Shown: positions 53,810 to 62,986 of the stretch, one piece after another
Position numbering within the stretch: the first letter of the stretch is position 1
Layout: the number at the start of each line of letters is the position of its first letter
Source of the DNA: Microtetraspora sp. NBRC 13810
Lineage (GTDB): Bacteria; Actinomycetota; Actinomycetes; Streptosporangiales; Streptosporangiaceae
Assembly: GCF_030268685.1 (NCBI RefSeq)
Contig: NZ_BSRQ01000005.1
Location: 62,001-126,000 of the forward strand
Length of the DNA stretch: 64,000 nucleotides
Direction of reading: 5' to 3'
The notes under the pieces: generated by a model
Told to the model about the DNA's origin: nothing
The model's database searches: none
What the model saw: the letters and a program-made list of their open reading frames with translations, nothing else
Position numbers and translations under genes: made by a program

Positions 53810-55603
53810 GTGTCCGTTTCCGTTGAGGCACCCGCCCCGACAGTCCACGCCGAGTTGAGGGAATGGGTCGGCAAGATCGCCGAGCTGGCCCAGCCCGATC
53901 GGATCGAGTGGTGCGACGGCTCCGAGGCCGAGTGGACGCGTCTGACGAACCTGCTGGTCGAGCAGGGCACCTTCAAGCGCCTCGCCAAGCGGCAGAACAG
54001 CTTCTATGCCGCCTCCGACCCCTCGGACGTGGCGCGCGTGGAAGACCGCACGTACATCTGCTCCGAGAAGGAGCAGGACGCGGGGCCGACCAACAACTGG
54101 ATCGCCCCCGCCGAGATGCGGAAGACCTTCGACGGGCTCTTCCAGGGCTGCATGCGCGGCCGCACGATGTACGTCGTGCCCTTCTGCATGGGCCCGCTGG
54201 GCGGGGAGATCTCCCAGCTCGGCGTGGAGATCACCGACTCGCCGTACGTCGTGGTCTCCATGCGGATCATGACCAGGATGGGCGAGTCCGCGCTGCGGCT
54301 CATCGAGCAGCGGGGCGACTACGTCAAGGCCGTGCACTCCGTCGGCGCGCCGCTGGAGCCCGGACAGCGGGACGTCCCGTGGCCGTGCAACCAGACGAAG
54401 TACATCAGCCACTTCCCCGAGACCAGGGAGATCTGGTCCTACGGGTCCGGGTACGGCGGCAACGCCCTGCTCGGCAAGAAGTGCTACGCCCTGCGCATCG
54501 CCAGCGTCATGGCCCGTGACGAAGGCTGGCTCGCCGAGCACATGCTCATCCTCAAACTCACCCCGCCGCGGGGCGAGGCCCGGTACATCGCCGCGGCCTT
54601 CCCCAGCGCGTGCGGCAAGACCAACCTCGCCATGCTCCAGCCGACGATTCCCGGCTGGAAGGTGGAGACGGTCGGCGACGACATCGCCTGGATGCGGTTC
54701 GGCGAGGACGGCCGCCTCCGCGCGATCAACCCGGAGGCCGGTTTCTTCGGCGTCGCCCCCGGCACCGGCGAGAAGACCAACGCCAACGCGGTGCGAACGC
54801 TGTGGGGCAACAGCATCTTCACCAACGTCGCGCTCACCGGCGACGGCGACGTGTGGTGGGAGGGGCTGACCGAGGAGCCGCCCGCGCACCTCACCGACTG
54901 GAAGGGCCGCCCCTGGACGCCCGCGTCCGGCGAGCCCGCCGCCCACCCCAACGCCCGCTTCACCACCCCGGCGGGCCAGTGCCCGACCATCGCCCCGGAG
55001 TGGCAGGACCCGAACGGCGTGCCGATCTCCGCGATCCTCTTCGGCGGACGCCGCGCCACGGCCGTGCCGCTGGTCACCGAGTCGATGAGCTGGCAGCACG
55101 GCGTCTTCCTCGGGGCCAACGTGGCCTCGGAGAAGACCGCCGCCGCCGAGGGCAAGGTGGGCGAGCTGCGCCGCGACCCGTTCGCGATGCTGCCCTTCTG
55201 CGGTTACAACATGGGCGACTACTTCGCCCACTGGCTGAGCGTCGGCCGCAGGGCCGGGGCCAAGCTGCCGACGATCTACTACGTCAACTGGTTCCGCAAG
55301 GACGCGGGCGGCCGGTTCGTCTGGCCGGGCTTCGGCGAGAACAGCCGGGTCCTCAAGTGGATCGTCGAACGCCTGAACGGCGAGGCGACCGCCGTACGGA
55401 CGCCGATCGGGCTGCTGCCGGAGTCACTGGACACCGACGGGCTCGACATCGCGCCCGAGGACATGGAGCTGCTGCTCTCGGTGGACGAGGAGGTGTGGCG
55501 GGAGGAGGCCGCCCTCATCCCCGGCCACTTCGAGACCTTCGGCGACCACATGCCCAAGGAGCTGTGGGACGAATACCGGGCTCTCGTCGACCGTCTCGGC
55601 TGA
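53810..55603 (+). CDS. pckG: phosphoenolpyruvate carboxykinase (GTP)
   Basis: A 597-aa gluconeogenic enzyme converting oxaloacetate and GTP to phosphoenolpyruvate. GTG 53810 with GAGG/AGGAG upstream. Motifs: [20 protein letters not shown], the kinase-1 P-loop [12 protein letters not shown] (mobile catalytic Cys included), the metal site in [10 protein letters not shown], and the nucleotide-binding [14 protein letters not shown]-like segment. The GTP type is normal for actinobacteria. The 420-nt upstream region holds GntR-type operator boxes; the gene ends at a strong terminator. Confidence 0.97.
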
Positions 55604-55784: not shown

Positions 55785-56630
55785 ATGGCCTTCGAGACGC
55801 CGGGCCGCACCGGCGGCGCGGTCGTGCCTTACCGGCTGGGAGTCGGCATCGGCTGGCGGCCGGAGATCGACCTGACCGTGGAGCGGCTGCCCGGGGTCGA
55901 GTTCGTCGAGGTGATCGCCGAGGGCGTCCAGCCGTCCCGGCCGGCCGACTCGCTGCGCGTCCTGAGGGCCCGCGGCCTGCCGGTCATCCCGCACGGCGTC
56001 GGCCTCGGCATCGGCGGCGCCGAGCCGCCCGACCCGGCCCGCCTCGCGCACCTCGCCGCCTGCGCCGAGGCGTTCGACTCGCCGCTGGTCAGCGAGCACC
56101 TCGCCTTCGTCCGCGCCGGCGACCTCGACGCCGGCCATCTCCTCCCGGTGCCGCGCACCCGCGAAGCCCTGTCGGTGATCGCGGACAACGTACGGCGGGC
56201 GCAGGCGGCCCTCCCCGTGCCGCTGGCCCTGGAGAACGTAGCGGCGCTCTTCGGCTGGCCGGAGGACGAGCTGACCGAGGCGGAGTTCCTCTACGAGCTG
56301 GTGGAGCGGACCGGCGTCGGCCTGCTGATCGACGTGGCCAACCTGTACAACAACCAGGTCAACCTCGGCCTGTCCGCCCGCAGGGCCCTCGACGGGCTGC
56401 CGCTGGACGCGCTGGCCTACGTGCACGTGGCCGGCGGCTACGCCCACGACGGCGTCTGGCACGACACGCACACCGCCTCGGTCCCGGACGCCGTCCTCGA
56501 CCTGCTCACCGAGCTGTGCGCGCGGGTCCGCCCGCCGGGGGTGCTGCTGGAGTGGGACGACGCCTACCCCAGCGACCAGGCCCTCGCCGCCGAACTCGAC
56601 CGGGTACGGGAGGCGATCTCCCGTGCCTGA
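55785..56630 (+). CDS. DUF692 multinuclear non-heme iron oxidase (MNIO)
   Basis: A 281-aa TIM-barrel enzyme; ATG 55785 preceded by GAGGAGG. Iron-site motifs in order: [55 protein letters not shown] and VLLEWDD. These match the His/Asp/Asn/Glu ligand pattern of the MNIO family (MbnB, BufB, TglH, ChrH), which oxidatively modify Cys, Asp or Asn in peptides. The DUF2063-like partner gene overlaps its end by 8 nt. A TIGR04222 Gly/Cys-tail protein gene lies 2.6 kb further on, beyond an inserted island. Confidence 0.9.
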
Positions 56631-57117
56631 CCAGGAGACCGCCCCGGAACCCCTGTCGGAACCCGCGCCCGGACCCCTGCCGGGACCCCTGTCGGAACCT
56701 GCGCCGGACCCCGGCTCCGGCCCGATGTGCGGCCCGGGGCGTGGTGGTGACGTGCCGGCGCGCGGCAGGCTCGCCGAGGCCCAGCGGGAGCTGCTCGCCG
56801 CGCTGGTCGCGGGCGGGCCCCGGCCCGAGGGGTTCGACGAGGTACGGCTGCGCATCCAGTCGGCCAGCCTGATCGCGAAGCGGCGCGGCCTGGTGGCGAG
56901 GTTCGCCCCGGAGCTGACCCGCAGGCTCGGCTCCGACTTCGCGCCGCTCTTCACGTCCTACGCCCAGGGGCACCCCAAGCCGCCCGGCGGTTCCCGGGCC
57001 GACGCCCGCGCCTTCATCGAGTGGCTGGACCGCTGCCGGTCGCCCGAACGCCGGCACACGACCGGCCCGGTGCCCCCGCCCGAGCGGATCTCCCGCTGGC
57101 GCCGCTTCTTCCGCTGA
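56623..57117 (+). CDS. DUF2063-like MNIO partner protein
   Basis: A 164-aa protein, GTG 56623 inside the last codons of the DUF692 gene (8-nt overlap). The first 45 residues are a Pro/Glu/Gly low-complexity leader made of repeated LSEPAPGP-type units. Residues about 48-140 follow the DUF2063 (HvfC/BufC N-terminal) pattern: [40 protein letters not shown], then [20 protein letters not shown] and a final FIEWL. Such proteins bring the precursor peptide to the MNIO enzyme. The assignment is by pattern and context, without a search. Confidence 0.7.
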
Positions 57118-57124
57118 GCCCTCC

Positions 57125-57141
57125 GCCCTGTCCTCCGCCCC
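57125..57141 (+). repeat. left copy of 17-bp direct repeat flanking the accessory island
   Basis: GCCCTGTCCTCCGCCCC, identical to 59558-59574. It lies 8 nt after the stop of the DUF2063-like gene. Confidence 0.7.
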
Positions 57142-57164
57142 CGATAGACGATCATGAACAAGGG

Positions 57165-57184
57165 CGCTCGTTTGGCTACGAGCG
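57165..57184 (+). terminator. hairpin after the DUF692 operon
   Basis: 7-bp stem CGCTCGT / ACGAGCG with a 6-nt loop, 48 nt after the DUF2063-like gene; it could terminate the pair of genes. Confidence 0.5.
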
Positions 57185-57269
57185 TGAACGAGCATGAGCG
57201 AGGACGAAGTCCCCACACCATGCCGAAAGCCTCAAAGTAAACGCCAGCGAGACTCAGCTTGGGCGAACC

Positions 57270-57398
57270 TCACACCGGCTTGATCCTCAGCCACAGGGGC
57301 CTGGCCTCTGGCGGCCAGTAATCCCCTCGGGCCCGGTCGGCGAATTCCTCGTATGTCACACCGAGCCGGTCGCGGGCCACCTCAAAGCGTCGGCGAGG
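57270..57398 (-). pseudogene. 3' remnant of an unidentified gene
   Basis: A 42-codon open frame without a start codon or ribosome binding site, ending RIKPV-stop at 57270. The sequence RFEVARDRLGVTYEEFADRA and GDYWPPEARPLWLR reads as real protein with coherent codons. It is cut off by a stop directly upstream. It lies just downstream of the XRE gene on the same strand. The family was not recognised. Confidence 0.5.
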
Positions 57399-57436
57399 TC
57401 AGCACTCAACGATGCTTCATGGCCTGCGGCTTCTGA

Positions 57437-58186
57437 TCAGGGCCCTGCCCAGGCATCCCGGCCGTCCGCCCACAGCTCGTTGATGTGGTAAGCGAAGCGG
57501 TCGTACAGGCCATCGTCCTGGAGGCGGTGAAGATGCAGCAACGGAGAGTCATGGCCGACGAGCTTCGCAAGGTGGGGGGTCACAAGCATTTCGTCGTCGA
57601 ACTGGAAGACCGACATCGCGATATGTTCTTCCCCGAAACGCACTTGAATACCCGGCACGTCCTTGAGCTGATCCAGTTCAGCAAGCGTGATCCGAATGCG
57701 CGTGGAAACGGTCAGAGGGACGTCCTCGATCTCCTCACGACGTCGAGTGACCTCACTGTCCGGATCTCCGAGGAGAAAACGGATGGTGCACCCTTTTTGC
57801 GCCTTCTGCTTGAGCGCCCGCGCGAGATTCGGATGTTCGAGCCAGAGGAAGTAGTTCGTATACCCGCCGAAGATGATATTGTTTTTCGCTGCTCCGATCA
57901 GGCGTCGCCAGACCGACTTGGGACAGGCTGACCGGTGCGGGTACACGGCCTGCACTTCCCGGTCTGGGCCGGTCTTAATGTTCGCGCGGATCGAGTCTGG
58001 CCAGAGCGTCATCTCGTCAACCCCCAAGGCATCTGCTGCGGCCCATCGGTGTCGGGGGTGTGGTACCCGGGCCTCATCGCCCAGCCAACGCTCCACCGTT
58101 TTGATGTCAACTTCGCACCGCTTAGCGAGATCCCTCTCAGTTATTCTCGCGGCGACCATTGCGCGCCGAAGAAGATCATTTGCCAT
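57437..58186 (-). CDS. XRE-type HTH regulator with C-terminal DUF5919 (PLD-like) domain
   Basis: A 249-aa protein; ATG 58186 with GAGGGA upstream. The N-terminal HTH (residues 1-65) has LLRRAMVAARITERDLAKRC and KTVERWLGDEARVPHPRHRW. The C-terminal domain (about 75-245) has the DUF5919 style: VYPHRSACPKSVWRRLIGAA, FGGYTNYFLWLE and IRFLLGDPDSEVTRRREEIE. The fold resembles phospholipase D, but I see no HxK(x)4D catalytic motif, so a ligand-sensing role is more likely. Lower G+C than its neighbours. Divergent from the small-gene operon. Confidence 0.82.
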   Translation of the reverse strand: MANDLLRRAMVAARITERDLAKRCEVDIKTVERWLGDEARVPHPRHRWAAADALGVDEMTLWPDSIRANIKTGPDREVQAVYPHRSACPKSVWRRLIGAAKNNIIFGGYTNYFLWLEHPNLARALKQKAQKGCTIRFLLGDPDSEVTRRREEIEDVPLTVSTRIRITLAELDQLKDVPGIQVRFGEEHIAMSVFQFDDEMLVTPHLAKLVGHDSPLLHLHRLQDDGLYDRFAYHINELWADGRDAWAGP

Positions 58187-58202
58187 GAAGGTCCCTCGTT
58201 CC

Positions 58203-58263
58203 AAGGACGTCAAGGACGTCAAGGACGTATGCAGAACGTACACGGAAACGTCCCTGACGTCCT
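58203..58263. promoter_or_regulatory. direct and inverted GGACGTC repeats in a divergent promoter region
   Basis: AAGGACGTC occurs three times in tandem (58203-58229, last copy with A for C). The complementary ACGTCCCTGACGTCCT lies at 58248-58263, nearly an exact inverted copy. Further ACGT cores are at 58236, 58248 and 58268. The array sits between the start of the XRE gene and the small-gene operon, as expected for an operator of that regulator. Confidence 0.65.
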
Positions 58264-58287
58264 CAGAACGTGGTGGGAACGACCAGA

Positions 58288-58530
58288 ATGACCAGCGAGA
58301 TTAGCCGCATGAGCAAGCCTCAGATCCTCGACGACCTCCAGCCGGTATTCCCCGACTGGGTCATCTGGAGGTCTTCGGCTGGCCAGCCGTGGGCGACGCG
58401 TAGGCGGCATCTCACTGACGACGAGCGCAACCTCGGACTCGTCCCCACGATCACCGGCCAGGACATGCAGCAACTGGTGGAAGCTCTGCGCGAGCAGGAA
58501 CGCCAACCCGCGATGTCCAGCCTGACCTAG
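58288..58530 (+). CDS. small hypothetical protein, island operon gene 1
   Basis: An 80-aa soluble protein; ATG 58288 is used (GTG 58270 and ATG 58309 are alternatives). The core is ILDDLQPVFPDWVIWRSSAG, WATRRRHLTDDERNLGL and DMQQLVEALREQERQ. It shares this layout with the product of gene 4 of the same operon: a P-x-W strand, W-A-T, acidic T-x-x-E, LG, then an L-V-x-A-(L/I)-x-E-Q helix. Such small proteins often accompany XRE regulators in actinomycete islands. Function unknown. Confidence 0.7.
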   Translation: MTSEISRMSKPQILDDLQPVFPDWVIWRSSAGQPWATRRRHLTDDERNLGLVPTITGQDMQQLVEALREQERQPAMSSLT

Positions 58531-58597
58531 TCAGCGGGACCCACCGAGTCGCGGCCGGCGCTCGGCGGGTCCCTTGATCGCATGGAGGTGCGACCCA

Positions 58598-58882
58598 ATG
58601 CCAAACCCTAGGACAACGCCGCTGTCCGGACAGCCCCCTGTCCGTGTCCATCCCCAGAATCATGATCCAGCGAAACGGGAGGCCGCGGCACGCCTCGACG
58701 CCCAGCATCCGGCCTGGCTGGTGCTCTACAGCCTCCACCGTCGCCAGTTCTGTGCTATCGCCGCGTGGCCGGCCCCGGAGCCGCTCACGCTGTGGGCGCG
58801 CACCGTCGAGGACCTCGCCCAGCAGATGCACGCGACGATGCCTGTCGTCCCCCGGCCGCGCGTTTTTCAGGACGCCCGATGA
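58598..58882 (+). CDS. small hypothetical protein, island operon gene 2
   Basis: A 94-aa protein; ATG 58598 with GGAGGTG upstream. N-terminus Pro/Arg/Thr-rich. The core HPAWLVLYSLHRRQFCAIAA then LTLWARTVEDLAQQMHATM again has the P-x-W strand and a closing helix, similar in layout to genes 1 and 4. The stop overlaps the next start by 4 nt (ATGA). No known family recognised. Confidence 0.72.
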   Translation: MPNPRTTPLSGQPPVRVHPQNHDPAKREAAARLDAQHPAWLVLYSLHRRQFCAIAAWPAPEPLTLWARTVEDLAQQMHATMPVVPRPRVFQDAR

Positions 58883-59166
58883 GCGGCCGGCAGGTGACGT
58901 CCGCGGTGTCGCACCTCACCGCTCTCGCCGCCGTGCTCAGTAGCCTGTCCCTGGACACCCAGATGGAGGACGGCGACGAGCCGAAACTGATCGTGACGAA
59001 CCCACGGGCACCGCAGCTCAGCGAGTCCATCACCGTCGCCGCGGACCCTGACGGCGTGCAGCAGTTCTGGTGGTCGTGGCATAAGCCGATCGCCGCCGTT
59101 GAGAACCGGCACGCAGTAGCCATGCGGATCAAATTCGTCCTCACCCCCGCGAGGACGCTCCGGTGA
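58879..59166 (+). CDS. small hypothetical protein, island operon gene 3
   Basis: A 95-aa protein; ATG 58879 overlaps the previous stop, and its own stop overlaps the next GTG (GTGA). Sequence features: a helical N-terminus (SAVSHLTALAAVLSSLSLD), then predicted strands ending VQQFWWSWHKPIAAVENRHA. No similarity recognised. The 4-nt overlaps on both sides imply coupled translation and fixed stoichiometry with its neighbours. Confidence 0.7.
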   Translation: MSGRQVTSAVSHLTALAAVLSSLSLDTQMEDGDEPKLIVTNPRAPQLSESITVAADPDGVQQFWWSWHKPIAAVENRHAVAMRIKFVLTPARTLR

Positions 59167-59396
59167 CCCCGGAGGAGGAGGCGCTTCACCTGGGCGTCCT
59201 CGACCAGACGTTCCCCGCGTGGCGGTTCACCGTCCTTGACGGCGGCTGGTGGGCCACGAAAGTGGACCCGCCCACGGAGAAGGAGAAGGCGTTGGGGATC
59301 CACGCGCAGATCCGCCGGGACCATCCGCACGCGCTCGTCTCAGCAATCGCCGAGCAGCAGGGCATCATCTCCGCACAGCGTGGCATCTTTGTCTGA
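59163..59396 (+). CDS. small hypothetical protein, island operon gene 4
   Basis: A 77-aa protein from GTG 59163, coupled to gene 3. LDQTFPAWRFTVLDGGWWAT, EKEKALGIHAQI and LVSAIAEQQGI parallel the product of gene 1, so the two are probably distant paralogues. Last gene of the small operon. Confidence 0.7.
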   Translation: MTPEEEALHLGVLDQTFPAWRFTVLDGGWWATKVDPPTEKEKALGIHAQIRRDHPHALVSAIAEQQGIISAQRGIFV

Positions 59397-59502
59397 CGCT
59401 ACCCCCCTCTGAGCCTCTCGGCGGGGGCACACTTCCCCCAGGATGCGCCCCCGCCGAGGTCCCATATGACGTCGAGCCCGAGATCAGCTGATTGCGATGC
59501 CA
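59397..59502. other. right end of the island, no gene seen
   Basis: About 105 nt after the small operon with no coding frame I accept. It includes a G+C-rich segment GGCGGGGGC near 59422 and CCCCGCC near 59449 that could pair as a weak terminator. Confidence 0.4.
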
Positions 59503-59700
59503 TCACTCCAGGATGTGGACCTCGGCCGCGTTGCCGGGCAGGATCTCAACGCCCTTGGCCCTGTCCTCCGCCCCGCCCTTGGCCCTGACCTCCGTACAGA
59601 GCCCCGCGCAGACCGCTGTACTGATCTTCGGCACGTTCCCGGCAAGATCACGGCACAGATCGCCGGGCAGGAGAGGAAACTTCTGCCGCGCGGCGGGCGT
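59503..59700 (-). pseudogene. 3' remnant of an unidentified gene containing the right direct-repeat copy
   Basis: An open frame of 65 codons ending at TGA 59505-59503, blocked upstream by TAG 59703-59701. It has no acceptable start or ribosome binding site. The protein LLPGDLCRDLAGNVPKIS, LCTEVRAKGGAEDRAKGVEI and a final AAEVHILE has regular G/C-ending codons, so it looks like true but truncated coding sequence. Family not recognised. The 17-bp repeat at 59558 lies inside it. Confidence 0.45.
59558..59574 (+). repeat. right copy of 17-bp direct repeat flanking the accessory island
   Basis: Identical to 57125-57141; the two copies are 2433 bp apart and bracket the XRE/small-gene island. Confidence 0.7.
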
Positions 59701-59755
59701 CTACAAGACACCAGGGCACGCGCCCAGCGCGCCCCGCTGCGCAGGGGAGGCGGAC

Positions 59756-60787
59756 GTGGAGATCATCCTCCTGTTGGTCACGATCACGGTTGCCGTGCTG
59801 GTAACGGGCACAAGGTCCGCCGCCACGCGGGAGTACGACAGGGTCCGCGGCGTCACCGCCGGGCAGTCGGGCCCGCTGGATCACTACCAGCTCGCCTACC
59901 TGGCGGGCGGCCCGCTCCGGGCCGTGAACACGGCGCTGGCGCTGCTCGCCCAGGCCGGCGCCATCCGCATCGCGCGCGGCGGCCGGGTCTCGCCTGTGCA
60001 CGGCGCGCCGCCCTCGGCCGATCCGGTCGAGCAGGCCGTGCTCGACGAGGTGGCGATTTACCCCGGAGAGTCCCTCGGGGAGATCCGCCGTCAGGTCGCC
60101 GCCGGCACGGCGATGCAGCAGCTCCGCTACTCACTGGTCGGCCGGGGCTTCCTGCTGCCCGACGGGGCCTTCACCCCGGTGCTGCGGCGGATCGGCCGGC
60201 TCAAGGCGGTCTCGGTGGGCGCGATCGTGCTCACCGTGATCATCATGGGCCTGATCGCCGTCGGCACCGTCGATCTCACCATGCCCTCGACGGCCGCGAT
60301 GCTCATCGCCGGCGTCGTCGGCATCCACGGCCTGCACACCTGTCGCCGCCTGGCCCGCGCCACCCGCAACCTCGTCAGTACGGCGGGCCACGCCGAGCTC
60401 TCCGCCGCCCGCCGCGCCCACCCCAGGACCGGGGGCACGCTCGCGCCCGACGTGGTCCTCGCCGTCCCGGTGGCCCTCTACGGGATCCAGGAGCTGGGCG
60501 ACCCCGCCCTGGAGACCGAGCTCAGCCGCCAGGAGGTCCGTTCCACCACCGCCGGCACCGCCGGTGTGGCCGGTTCCTGCGGCGGCGGCAGCGCCTATGC
60601 GGGCGACCCCACGTACGGCGGCGTCTCCTACGGCGGCGGTTCCTCGCACGGCGGTTCCTCCCCCGGCGGCGGAGACTTCGGCGGCGGGTGCGGCTCCAGC
60701 GGTGGCAGCAGCGGCGGCGGTGGTGGTGGCTGCGGCGGCGGCGGTGGTGGTGGTGGCGGTGGCTGCGGCGGCGGTGGCGGCGGCTGA
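59756..60787 (+). CDS. TIGR04222 membrane protein with Gly/Cys-rich C-terminal tail
   Basis: A 343-aa protein; GTG 59756 with GGGGAGG 8 nt upstream (the frame is open from 59492, but that part is the antisense of a gene remnant). Layout: membrane helix 1 (residues 2-18); TIGR04222 domain (about 20-145, DHYQLAYLAGGPLRAVNTAL and GEIRRQVAAGTAMQQLRYSL); two more helices (about 148-192); a short soluble region; and a 70-residue Gly/Ser tail with Cys at 275, 312, 326 and 337. TIGR04222 proteins are defined by such low-complexity tails and lie near DUF692 genes. The Cys-Gly units are candidate MNIO substrates. Confidence 0.88.
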   Translation: MEIILLLVTITVAVLVTGTRSAATREYDRVRGVTAGQSGPLDHYQLAYLAGGPLRAVNTALALLAQAGAIRIARGGRVSPVHGAPPSADPVEQAVLDEVAIYPGESLGEIRRQVAAGTAMQQLRYSLVGRGFLLPDGAFTPVLRRIGRLKAVSVGAIVLTVIIMGLIAVGTVDLTMPSTAAMLIAGVVGIHGLHTCRRLARATRNLVSTAGHAELSAARRAHPRTGGTLAPDVVLAVPVALYGIQELGDPALETELSRQEVRSTTAGTAGVAGSCGGGSAYAGDPTYGGVSYGGGSSHGGSSPGGGDFGGGCGSSGGSSGGGGGGCGGGGGGGGGGCGGGGGG

Positions 60788-60827
60788 CCCGGCGACTCCC
60801 GCCTCGGTCGAAGCTCCCGCTCGGTTT

Positions 60828-60970
60828 GAAGCTCCCGCCTCGGGTGGGGCTTCGGCCTCAGGTGAGGCTCCGGTCTTGGTGGAGGCTCCCGTCTTGGGTG
60901 GGGCTTCGGCCTTGGGTGAGGCTCCGGTCTCGGTGGAGGCTCCCGTCTCGGGTGGGGCTTCGGCCTTCAG
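60828..60970. repeat. 54-nt tandem repeat, about 2.7 copies
   Basis: Units start at 60828, 60882 and 60936; they differ at a few positions. The region directly follows the TIGR04222 gene and overlaps the end of the monooxygenase remnant. Confidence 0.9.
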
Positions 60971-61274
60971 GGGAAGCTCTTGTCCCAGGTGGAGGATGCG
61001 TCTGATCTTGGGCCGAACCAGGCCGTCAGGGCCTGTGCCAGGGAGCCGGTCGAGGTGGGGTCGCCGGCCCAGGCGACGTGGCAGTCGGGGCGGATGAGGA
61101 GGGCGGCGGCGGGCGGGTTCGCGCAGCGGGCGGCGATCACGTCCACCCGGCCCTTCCACCCGGCCGCGACGGAGGCCGACGCGGCGGGTCAGGGTGGCGA
61201 GGCGGATCTCGTCGCCGGTTGCGGTGGTGAGGGTGAGATCCGGGACGAAGCGGCCGGTCAGCGGGTGGGGGCGG
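60967..61274 (-). pseudogene. C-terminal remnant of a FAD-dependent aromatic monooxygenase
   Basis: Two frames together give the end of a class A flavoprotein hydroxylase. HPLTGRFVPDLTLTTATGDE (from about 61267) and RLATLTR are in one frame. SVAAGWKGRVDVIAARCANP, AAALLIRPDCHVAWAGDP and the terminal ALTAWFG are in another, ending at TGA 60969-60967. The family normally has about 15 extra residues between these blocks, so there is a frameshifting deletion. The FAD- and substrate-binding parts are absent and replaced by repeats. It lies directly downstream of the TetR gene, whose target it probably was. Confidence 0.75.
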
Positions 61275-61383: not shown

Positions 61384-62013
61384 TCAGCGGGAGGGGTCGG
61401 GCATTCCGGCGGCGAGCTGGGCGAGGGCCTCGCGGAGCAGCACGATGAGGGGGACCGGCGGATCGGCGTGCAGGAACCGCTCGGTGGCGACGTGGACGGC
61501 GGTGGACACGGCGGCGGCGACGAGACGGGGGTAGAGGTCCCGCTCGGCGTCGGTGCCGGTGCGCTCCGCCACGGCCAGGGCGAAGTCGCGGTCGGCGGTC
61601 ACCATGATCTTCAGGTGGGTCTGGTCGGAGGCGGCCTCGGTGACCAACAGCCGGAGCCCGGCGAGCAGCTCGGCGCCGGGACTCCGGGTGACCCGGTCGC
61701 CGCGCCCCAGGGGTTCGAGCACGGCCTCAGTGATCGCCTCCCACAGCGGCTCGGCCGCCGGGCGGGCACGCAGCAGCTCGGCGGACCGCCGCATCCGGGA
61801 GACGTGCCGGTAGCCGACGGCCTCGTGCTTACTGGAGAAATAGTTGTTGAAGGTGCGCGGAGAGACCCCGGCCTCCGCGGCGATCTCCTCGATCCGCACG
61901 TTCTCCAGCCCGCGCTCGGCCGCCAGCCGGACCACGGCCAGCGACAGCGCCTCGCGGGTCGCCTGCTTCTTGCGCTCGCGCAGGCCGGGGGGCTGGTCGG
62001 ATGAGGTGCTTAC
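61384..62013 (-). CDS. TetR/AcrR family regulator lacking a canonical start codon
   Basis: The open frame codes for a complete TetR protein of about 209 residues. N-terminal helices (LRERKKQATREALSLAVVRL) and HTH (RIEEIAAEAGVSPRTFNNYF) are intact, and a helical ligand domain follows. The natural start position (before STSSDQPPG) is GTA at 62013-62011, and no ATG, GTG or TTG precedes the HTH. The first canonical start is GTG 61935, which would cut into helix 1. Either the start has mutated, or a non-standard start is used. A perfect palindrome lies 19 nt upstream. Confidence 0.75.
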   Translation of the reverse strand, partial: VSTSSDQPPGLRERKKQATREALSLAVVRLAAERGLENVRIEEIAAEAGVSPRTFNNYFSSKHEAVGYRHVSRMRRSAELLRARPAAEPLWEAITEAVLEPLGRGDRVTRSPGAELLAGLRLLVTEAASDQTHLKIMVTADRDFALAVAERTGTDAERDLYPRLVAAAVSTAVHVATERFLHADPPVPLIVLLREALAQLAAGMPDPSR

Positions 62014-62224: not shown

Positions 62225-62986
62225 TTGGGCGTGCGCGATCTCGTCTACCGCCTGTACGAACACCGGCTGGAAGGCAAGCTCTCCGGCGACAGCATCCCCC
62301 GCCATGTCGCCATGATCGTCGACGGCAACCGGCGCTGGGCCCGTGCGATGGGCATGGCGGATGTCGCCCGCGGCCACCGGAAGGGCGCGGACAAGATCAC
62401 CGAGCTGGTCGGGTGGTGCCGTGACGCGGGCGTGGAGGTCGTCACGATCTGGATGCTGTCCAGTGACAACCTGTCCCGCCCGAAGGACGAGCTTGAGCCG
62501 CTGCTGAGGATCATCGAGGATGTCGTCCAGGAGCTGGTGGAGGCCGGATGGCACATCAAACCCGTCGGAGCCCTCGATCTGCTGCCGGATCACACGGCCC
62601 ATGTCCTCAAAAAGGCAAAAGAGGCCACATCACACCGTCCAGGGCTGATTGTTAACGTTGCAGTTGGGTATGGAGGAAGACGTGAGATCGCTGATGCGGT
62701 GCGCTCACTCCTCCAGGAGCACGCCAGCAAGGGGGCGAGTATCGAGGACCTCGTCGAGGTTCTCGATGTGGAGCACATCGCGGAGCATCTCTACACGCGC
62801 GGCCTGCCCGACCCGGATCTTGTCATCCGGACTTCGGGAGAGCAACGGCTCTCCGGCTTCTTGCTCTGGCAGAGCGCCCACTCCGAGTTCTACTTCTGCG
62901 AGGCCTTCTGGCCTGACTTCCGCAGGGTCGACTTCTTGCGGGCGCTGCGTTCCTACGCCGCGCGTCACCGACGGTACGGCACCTGA
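62225..62986 (+). CDS. isoprenyl transferase (cis-prenyl diphosphate synthase, UppS family)
   Basis: A 253-aa cis-prenyltransferase. TTG 62225 follows GGAGG by 8 nt; GTG 62231 is an alternative. Motifs: HVAMIVDGNRRWARAMG with catalytic Asp (about residue 36), SSDNLSRPKDEL, VAVGYGGRREIADAV, and the C-terminal DLVIRTSGEQRLSGFLLWQS with SEFYF. It extends farnesyl or geranyl diphosphate with isopentenyl units to make Z-prenyl carriers such as decaprenyl phosphate for cell-wall synthesis. The short length matches UppS or the Rv1086-like enzymes. Confidence 0.95.
   Translation: MGVRDLVYRLYEHRLEGKLSGDSIPRHVAMIVDGNRRWARAMGMADVARGHRKGADKITELVGWCRDAGVEVVTIWMLSSDNLSRPKDELEPLLRIIEDVVQELVEAGWHIKPVGALDLLPDHTAHVLKKAKEATSHRPGLIVNVAVGYGGRREIADAVRSLLQEHASKGASIEDLVEVLDVEHIAEHLYTRGLPDPDLVIRTSGEQRLSGFLLWQSAHSEFYFCEAFWPDFRRVDFLRALRSYAARHRRYGT

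Follow-up and report, generated by a model that had tools for sequence, protein, structure and literature searches.

What is modified by the MNIO enzyme encoded in a 64,000-nucleotide stretch of the Microtetraspora sp. NBRC 13810 genome (contig NZ_BSRQ01000005.1, positions 62,001 to 126,000; the whole stretch is called the window here)? Most of what is known of MNIO enzymes concerns short peptides that are secreted or carry a leader. In the window, the enzyme gene is followed by that of a small partner protein and, 3.1 kb downstream on the same strand, by a gene for a TIGR04222 membrane protein with four Cys in its Gly-rich tail, which makes the latter a candidate substrate. Comparing the locus with its relatives, we consider it probable that enzyme and partner modify this Cys-Gly tail. 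Behind this reading stands a plain observation: tail Cys go together with the presence of the enzyme, and in two genomes without a detected enzyme the same locus encodes a Gly tail without Cys. An earlier note on this DNA, made from the sequence alone, had proposed such a modification, and its claims are taken up below where results bear on them. The components are as follows.

55785 to 56630, plus strand: MNIO (DUF692/PF05114) enzyme, 281 residues, bufferin-maturase-like (Pfam, NCBIfam, PDB relatives)
56623 to 57117, plus strand: MNIO partner of the PME-type 2 kind, 164 residues, with a helical DUF2063-like domain (AlphaFold2, VIA-align, natural fusions)
59756 to 60787, plus strand: TIGR04222 membrane protein, 343 residues, the proposed substrate, with a first transmembrane segment (TM1), a GPP34-like core, a TM2-TM3 hairpin, further helices and the tail (TIGR04222 match, structure model, hhalign)
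60557 to 60787, plus strand: Gly-rich disordered tail, residues 268 to 343 plus stop codon, with the proposed modification sites (sequence, pLDDT, relatives)

The membrane protein scores 112.2 bits against the TIGR04222 model, well beyond the curated cut-off of 43, and its reading frame is intact. Translation likely starts at GTG 59756 rather than at 59492, since the family match begins only at residue 94 of the longer open reading frame (ORF) and GGGGAGG precedes the GTG. The tail, with pLDDT below 50 nearly throughout, has a Gly after each of its four Cys, just as the earlier note had read it. Short imperfect GC-rich repeats, seen by eye, lie at 60800-60990, right after the stop codon.

How general is this arrangement? 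Among 200 genomes of the window's family, Streptosporangiaceae, profile searches found TIGR04222 in 126 and MNIO in 85. The TIGR04222 counts rest on the 150 matches listed, which come from 107 of the 126 positive genomes, and are to be read as "at least". A TIGR04222 match no more than 6 kb from an MNIO match was called linked. This applies to 94 of the 150, all 94 on the strand of the enzyme gene, 86 of them upstream and 8 downstream of it; seen from the other side, 74 of the 94 MNIO match rows have a listed TIGR04222 nearby and 20 have none. A second sample comprised 80 named actinobacterial loci (Streptosporangium, Nonomuraea, Planomonospora, Streptomyces, Kitasatospora, Saccharothrix, Actinokineospora, Mycolicibacterium and others), 75 of which contain TIGR04222 and 61 a TIGR04222 with at least three tail Cys. 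Downstream of the partner, some linked loci have another, shorter TIGR04222-like match (L069:4768, L074:5082, L088:4864, L089:4824 and L116:5183, in the orientation of the MNIO strand); it has a Cys tail in L069 and L074 and no Cys in L088, L089 and L116.

The tails themselves were classified by a criterion that was fixed only after they had been looked at: three or more Cys among the 60 C-terminal residues, with Gly, Ser and Cys making up at least 60% of the final 30. Among the matches listed, such Cys/Gly tails occur in 90 of the 94 linked proteins as against 4 of the 56 unlinked ones, and all four of the latter belong to genomes with an MNIO elsewhere. None of the 33 unlinked proteins listed from MNIO-free genomes has one; conversely, all 73 genomes with such a tail among the matches listed also have an MNIO. 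In the 90 linked proteins listed with this tail, Gly comes right after 379 of 448 tail Cys, and a Cys-Gly run ends 88 of the 89 full-length linked tails, each of which has 3 to 9 Cys. Linkage of DUF692 with TIGR04222 across genomes and conservation of the tail Cys, on both of which the earlier note had staked its proposal, are thereby borne out.

Could these Cys nevertheless be neutral noise, given that a single change from GGC to TGC within a GC-rich run of Gly codons creates one? The tail is of low complexity and variable in length, and Gly-richness does explain part of the contrast: only 14 of the 56 unlinked tails are Gly-rich, with Gly making up 40% or more of their final 30 residues. Within the Gly-rich tails, Cys are found in the last 30 residues of 86/86 linked proteins, 5/9 unlinked ones from MNIO-positive genomes and 1/5 from MNIO-free genomes. 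The last class holds only five tails, one of them with a Cys at the edge of the counted stretch, and this speaks for noise and tells against a substrate role. With Cys in every linked Gly-rich tail, a Cys-Gly run at nearly every linked tail end and Gly tails devoid of Cys in the two genomes described next, we regard noise as very improbable, judged on a limited number of comparable tails.

In these two genomes, G067 and G098 (contamination estimates 5 and 8%), no MNIO was detected, and TIGR04222 is kept between the genes for PEPCK and the isoprenyl transferase uppS, a locus at which neither MNIO nor partner was seen. The two markers are 86.8-88.1% identical to those of the window and the TIGR04222 protein is 45-46% identical across the domain, while the tail combines abundant Gly with Asp and Glu and has 0 Cys. 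A third genome of the same genus, G120, has an MNIO match with no listed TIGR04222 nearby. In the window the markers are the following.

53810 to 55603, plus strand: PEPCK gene, conserved upstream neighbour and synteny marker outside the system (NF003253, 1004 bits; match in 52/73 loci)
62225 to 62986, plus strand: isoprenyl transferase gene (uppS), conserved downstream neighbour and synteny marker (NF011403, 402.9 bits; match in 50/73 loci)

These marker counts come from a tblastn scan of 73 linked loci, the window's own included, with the window proteins, and are lower bounds (flanks are short and some contigs end). Together with the counts of strand and side they give the usual gene order: PEPCK, TIGR04222, MNIO, partner, uppS. 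Because the PEPCK-uppS setting is conserved, the comparison suggests a vertically inherited function and not a mobile natural-product cluster. Between TIGR04222 and uppS the window also encodes a TetR-type regulator (61384-61935, minus strand), whose nearest model is the mycofactocin regulator MftR (65.6 bits, cut-off 224.9); the regulator has no tblastn match in the other 72 loci.

Is the tail a substrate at all? Its Cys might instead bind metal or form disulfides in unmodified form, with MNIO and partner acting elsewhere. Metal-binding Cys left unmodified would need no enzyme, however, and both the invariable presence of MNIO in genomes with listed Cys/Gly tails and the Cys-free Gly tail of G067 and G098, encoded at the corresponding locus without MNIO or partner, stand in its way. 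We therefore judge this alternative unlikely, even though several findings speak for it or at least weigh against the substrate role. First, 4 of the 94 linked proteins lack the Cys/Gly tail: an upstream copy in L082, a contig-open one in L088 and the short second copies in L089 and L116. Second, since G067 and G098 belong to one genus, their Cys-free tails may represent one event. Third, the association of Cys with MNIO is partly one of shared ancestry. On a tree of 122 TIGR04222 domains the Cys state changes 9 times; of 6 independent pairs on starred branches, about 4.3 go with MNIO proximity and 0 against it (median p 0.125), while for MNIO anywhere in the genome about 1.1 go with it, 0 go against it and most show no difference (median p 1), which lends the substrate role no support. 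Neither pair test is significant, and the tests are underpowered or neutral.

Fourth, a TIGR04222 with three or more tail Cys is missing from 19 of the 80 named MNIO loci. MNIO and partner are fused in 15 of these, 13 of which are named Streptomyces, so that, judged by eye, 15 of the 19 fusion loci in this sample have no Cys tail nearby; several of the tail-less loci are short or truncated at a contig end, L229 among the latter. Without such a tail the enzymes at these loci need another substrate or one encoded elsewhere, and for the Streptomyces fusions the substrate story has a real gap. A search of the 19 tail-less loci for Cys-tailed ORFs yielded three on the minus strand (L232, L251 and L266), which were dismissed. 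At two loci, L256:6028-9274 (Streptomyces olivaceoviridis) and L266:5965-8260, the fusion sits beside a short TIGR04222-like protein without a Cys tail, and no convincing Cys-tailed gene was found near either; L256 also encodes a DUF4142 protein (E 1.9e-23).

What, then, is known of the two proteins that would carry out the modification? The enzyme matches PF05114 with an E-value of 2.3e-79 (266.8 bits, gathering cut-off 25). Ten residues, which we take to be the metal ligands, are invariant in it and 13 relatives (H70, H105, E150, D183, N186, H214, H226, D227, H229 and E256), in keeping with the full set of ligand motifs that had been read from the sequence before. The best MNIO subfamily model listed is NF050167 (MNIO_BufB), matched at E 1e-5 or better by all 14 sequences. 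The nearest solved relatives are 8hci_D, the DUF692 protein of the TglHI entry (E 2.1e-29), 3bww and MbnB. Two more MNIO genes occur in the same genome without TIGR04222 (L315:5337-6179 and L316:5081-6112), and nitroreductase-like genes lie close to the one in L315.

The partner is harder to place. We assigned a protein to PME-type 2 when its gene follows that of the MNIO, the DUF2063 signature is absent and the fold is related to known MNIO partners. The window gene overlaps the end of the MNIO gene, stop codon included, by 8 nucleotides. By itself its product has no Pfam match at E 10, thus none to the DUF2063 signature PF09836, and no NCBIfam match at E 1; in the alignment of its relatives DUF2063 is the family most often matched, if weakly (11 of 71 members, best E 2.4e-4). 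A PDB sequence search with the partner profile returned nothing relevant (best E 0.094). The AlphaFold2 model (pLDDT 83.5) is helical and no RRE domain is visible in it. When this model was compared with 80 chains in VIA-align, only MbnC (7dz9_C; Z 6.7 over 81 residues at 3.1 Å, below the tool's recommended level of 8) and TglI (8hci_A; Z 4.3 over 93 residues at 3.3 Å) exceeded Z 4. These matches are weak, and a Foldseek search of the PDB gave none at E 0.001, the best again being MbnC at E 1.7; both results count against a firm assignment. NGO1945 (3dee) was not among the structural matches listed, although an unlisted relation is possible. Of the DUF2063 pattern that the partner had been credited with, the kinship with relatives and partner folds thus stands, while a direct match of the window protein does not.

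The distribution of the partner is clearer. At 69 of the 73 linked loci it was found by tblastn, and in the remaining four (L119, L128, L132 and L133) its motif was recognised by eye in the next ORF. Its profile also matches 77 of the 80 named loci; the other three (L206, L209 and L269) are short and end soon after the MNIO gene. The partner is therefore near-universal at MNIO-linked loci. Natural fusions with MNIO form one ORF in G024 and L131 and were counted by eye in 19 of the 80 named loci, often from Streptomyces. In L247, from Saccharothrix sp. NRRL B-16314, a profile match places a partner homologue beside the MNIO; this strain is the source of example A in PMC12452194.

On which side of the membrane would the tail lie? 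In the structure model of the TIGR04222 protein (pLDDT mostly over 90 as far as about residue 220, then 84-90 to about 260), a long hydrophobic helix at 2-31 is followed by a soluble part with winged-helix-like elements at 43-132, by two long hydrophobic helices at 140-169 and 176-202 and then by short helices, with disorder from residue 268. An alignment of 59 TIGR04222 proteins served for the topology and fold counts. In 58 of them the flanks on the soluble side have a higher density of Lys and Arg than the TM2-TM3 loop. Three crossings and this charge distribution place the tail on the same side as the soluble domain, probably in the cytoplasm, and speak against the surface display that the earlier note had envisaged.

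A resemblance of the soluble domain to GPP34/GOLPH3 agrees with this placement, as GPP34 proteins are cytosolic. Against the GPP34 profile the soluble core reaches an hhalign probability of 93.1 over about 75 columns, compared with at most 0.6 for the reversed, MNIO and partner profiles and at most 1.8 for 50 column shuffles. This supports distant kinship, by sequence over about 75 columns only; beyond TM3, no similarity to the GPP34 sequence was found (hhalign 0.5%). In VIA-align, GOLPH3/Vps74 chains align with residues 39-263 (3kn1 at Z 7.7, 4tu3 at Z 7.6 and 2zih at Z 7.1), a level that the tool warns may be common. Most of the high rows (BAG, ExbB/TolQ, Smac) were discounted as long-helix matches, and Foldseek found no PDB match to the model at E 0.001 or better. 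GPP34 itself (PF05719) is not listed for the window protein and is matched by only 2 of the 59 members (best E 0.0094); other Pfam matches among the 59 are HTH_Crp_2 in 9, DUF2207_C in 5 and HTH_20 in 4.

The same system could also export its tail and use it as a surface or periplasmic metal buffer in the manner of bufferins. A hydrophobic stretch after TM3 reaches 1.6 or more in 13 of the 59 proteins, and in the window it exceeds TM3 itself (1.48 versus 1.37); were it a fourth crossing, the tail would be outside. Antoine et al. (PMC12452194) also predict a periplasmic tail. In the model, however, three helices are long and hydrophobic and those after TM3 are all broken or short, and the equivalent stretch of unlinked homologues, inspected by eye, often contains charged residues. 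With the charge distribution and the GPP34-like core added, export appears rather unlikely to us.

How might modification of a cytoplasmic tail proceed? MNIO and its DUF2063-like PME-type 2 partner would form a two-part enzyme whose substrate is the Cys-Gly tail of the neighbouring three-pass membrane protein, with the MNIO oxidising the tail Cys. A cytosolic enzyme would reach such a tail directly on the membrane-anchored protein, and the substrate, through its winged-helix-like soluble domain, might itself make up for the RRE missing from the short partner. As to chemistry, we tentatively favour 5-thiooxazole formation, without rating it an even chance, because the nearest NCBIfam model is that of the bufferin maturase and 5-thiooxazoles, with loss of 4 H per repeat, are reported for FonA and its EGKCG repeats (PMC13097082); characterised relatives of the bufferin/oxazolin type form them as well. 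Since the window enzyme scores 193.7 bits, under the BufB equivalog cut-off of 310, its chemistry may also differ from that of BufB, a further reservation about this scheme. The product would be a membrane-tethered ligand for soft metals, perhaps copper, although copper as the physiological ligand seems doubtful. In its full form, the picture is that of a GPP34-like membrane protein that bears an enzyme-modified Cys polymer on the inner face of the membrane, modified in place as a tethered cytosolic metal ligand and not a secreted ribosomally synthesized and post-translationally modified peptide (RiPP); we offer it as a serious possibility, held with somewhat less than even confidence.

The window departs from the usual gene order in having TIGR04222 downstream of the partner, with additional DNA between the two.

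57118 to 57141, plus strand: 24-nucleotide direct repeat, left copy, adjoining the stop codon of the partner gene (22/24 identical to the right copy)
57142 to 59550, no strand: probable inserted cassette of 2.4 kb between partner gene and TIGR04222 (flanking repeats, locus specificity)
57437 to 58243, minus strand: HTH/DUF5919-like gene in the cassette (ORF)
58270 to 59400: small ORFs of the cassette
59551 to 59574, plus strand: 24-nucleotide direct repeat, right copy (22/24 identical to the left copy)

Three cassette ORFs that were tested match just one of the 73 loci, the window's own copy; parts of the cassette are repeated, 67-86% identical, in other regions of this genome, and it has no match in the plasmid collection. 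The genome G027 (L095) shares the order PEPCK, MNIO, partner, TIGR04222, but there just some 0.2 kb separates partner and TIGR04222, and for this reason the cassette most likely represents an insertion between the enzyme pair and the proposed substrate gene. An alignment of the G027 partner-TIGR04222 DNA with the joined flanks of the window, as for an empty site, matched only at the partner gene and in very short stretches.

Has such a system been described? The earlier note knew of no description, but the locus type is already proposed in print: Antoine et al. (2025; PMC12452194) propose that MNIO enzymes, with PME-type 2 partners, act on TIGR04222 tails that contain Cys. Among 5.39 million open-access papers, TIGR04222 turned up in one other, PMC5183585, which mentions a TIGR04222 peptide in a Pseudonocardia bacteriocin cluster, and no further report of the system was found. 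The words GPP34 and GOLPH3 do not occur in the main text of PMC12452194. GOLPH3-like proteins are described as widespread in actinomycetes, with SCO4440 affecting peptidoglycan in Streptomyces coelicolor, in PMC12402492, which does not mention DUF692.

If an integral membrane protein is indeed the substrate, the MNIO class reaches into general protein modification in actinobacteria, and does so in a locus inherited beside PEPCK and uppS, unlike a typical natural-product cluster. The paired absence of enzyme and tail Cys singles out the residues of interest, and the probable topology points to the location of the product.

How does the locus compare with known systems? With GPP34/GOLPH3-Vps74 it shares the roughly 75 aligned columns of the soluble core; GPP34 proteins are peripheral and are not known to have such transmembrane segments or such a tail. 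Methanobactin (MbnABC) and 3-thiaglutamate (TglAHI) biosynthesis likewise rely on an enzyme-partner pair and supply the nearest partner folds. Their substrates are short leader-bearing or scaffold peptides, and their products are others. In the bufferins and captophorins (BufABC, HvfABC, FonABC) an MNIO and a DUF2063-type partner also act on Cys, often in a Cys-Gly context such as EGKCG, but on precursors with a Sec signal and with full DUF2063-RRE partners, whereas here an integral membrane protein is combined with a short partner. Closest are the systems of Antoine et al. (2025), which have in common with the window the MNIO, a DUF2063-like partner without the Pfam signature, a TIGR04222 membrane protein with Cys in its Ser/Gly tail as proposed substrate and an origin mostly in Actinomycetota. 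The window differs from them in that TIGR04222 lies downstream of the partner, behind the 2.4-kb insert. According to PMC12452194, PME-type 2 genes occur in at least 10% of TIGR04222 clusters, MNIO-less ones included, and many clusters with MNIO appear to lack the partner gene, whereas we find the partner at nearly every MNIO-linked locus. Together with this near-universal partner, the Cys-free tail at an enzyme-free locus, the tail placed, by prediction, inside the cell and the GPP34-like core are what the present analysis adds to that proposal.

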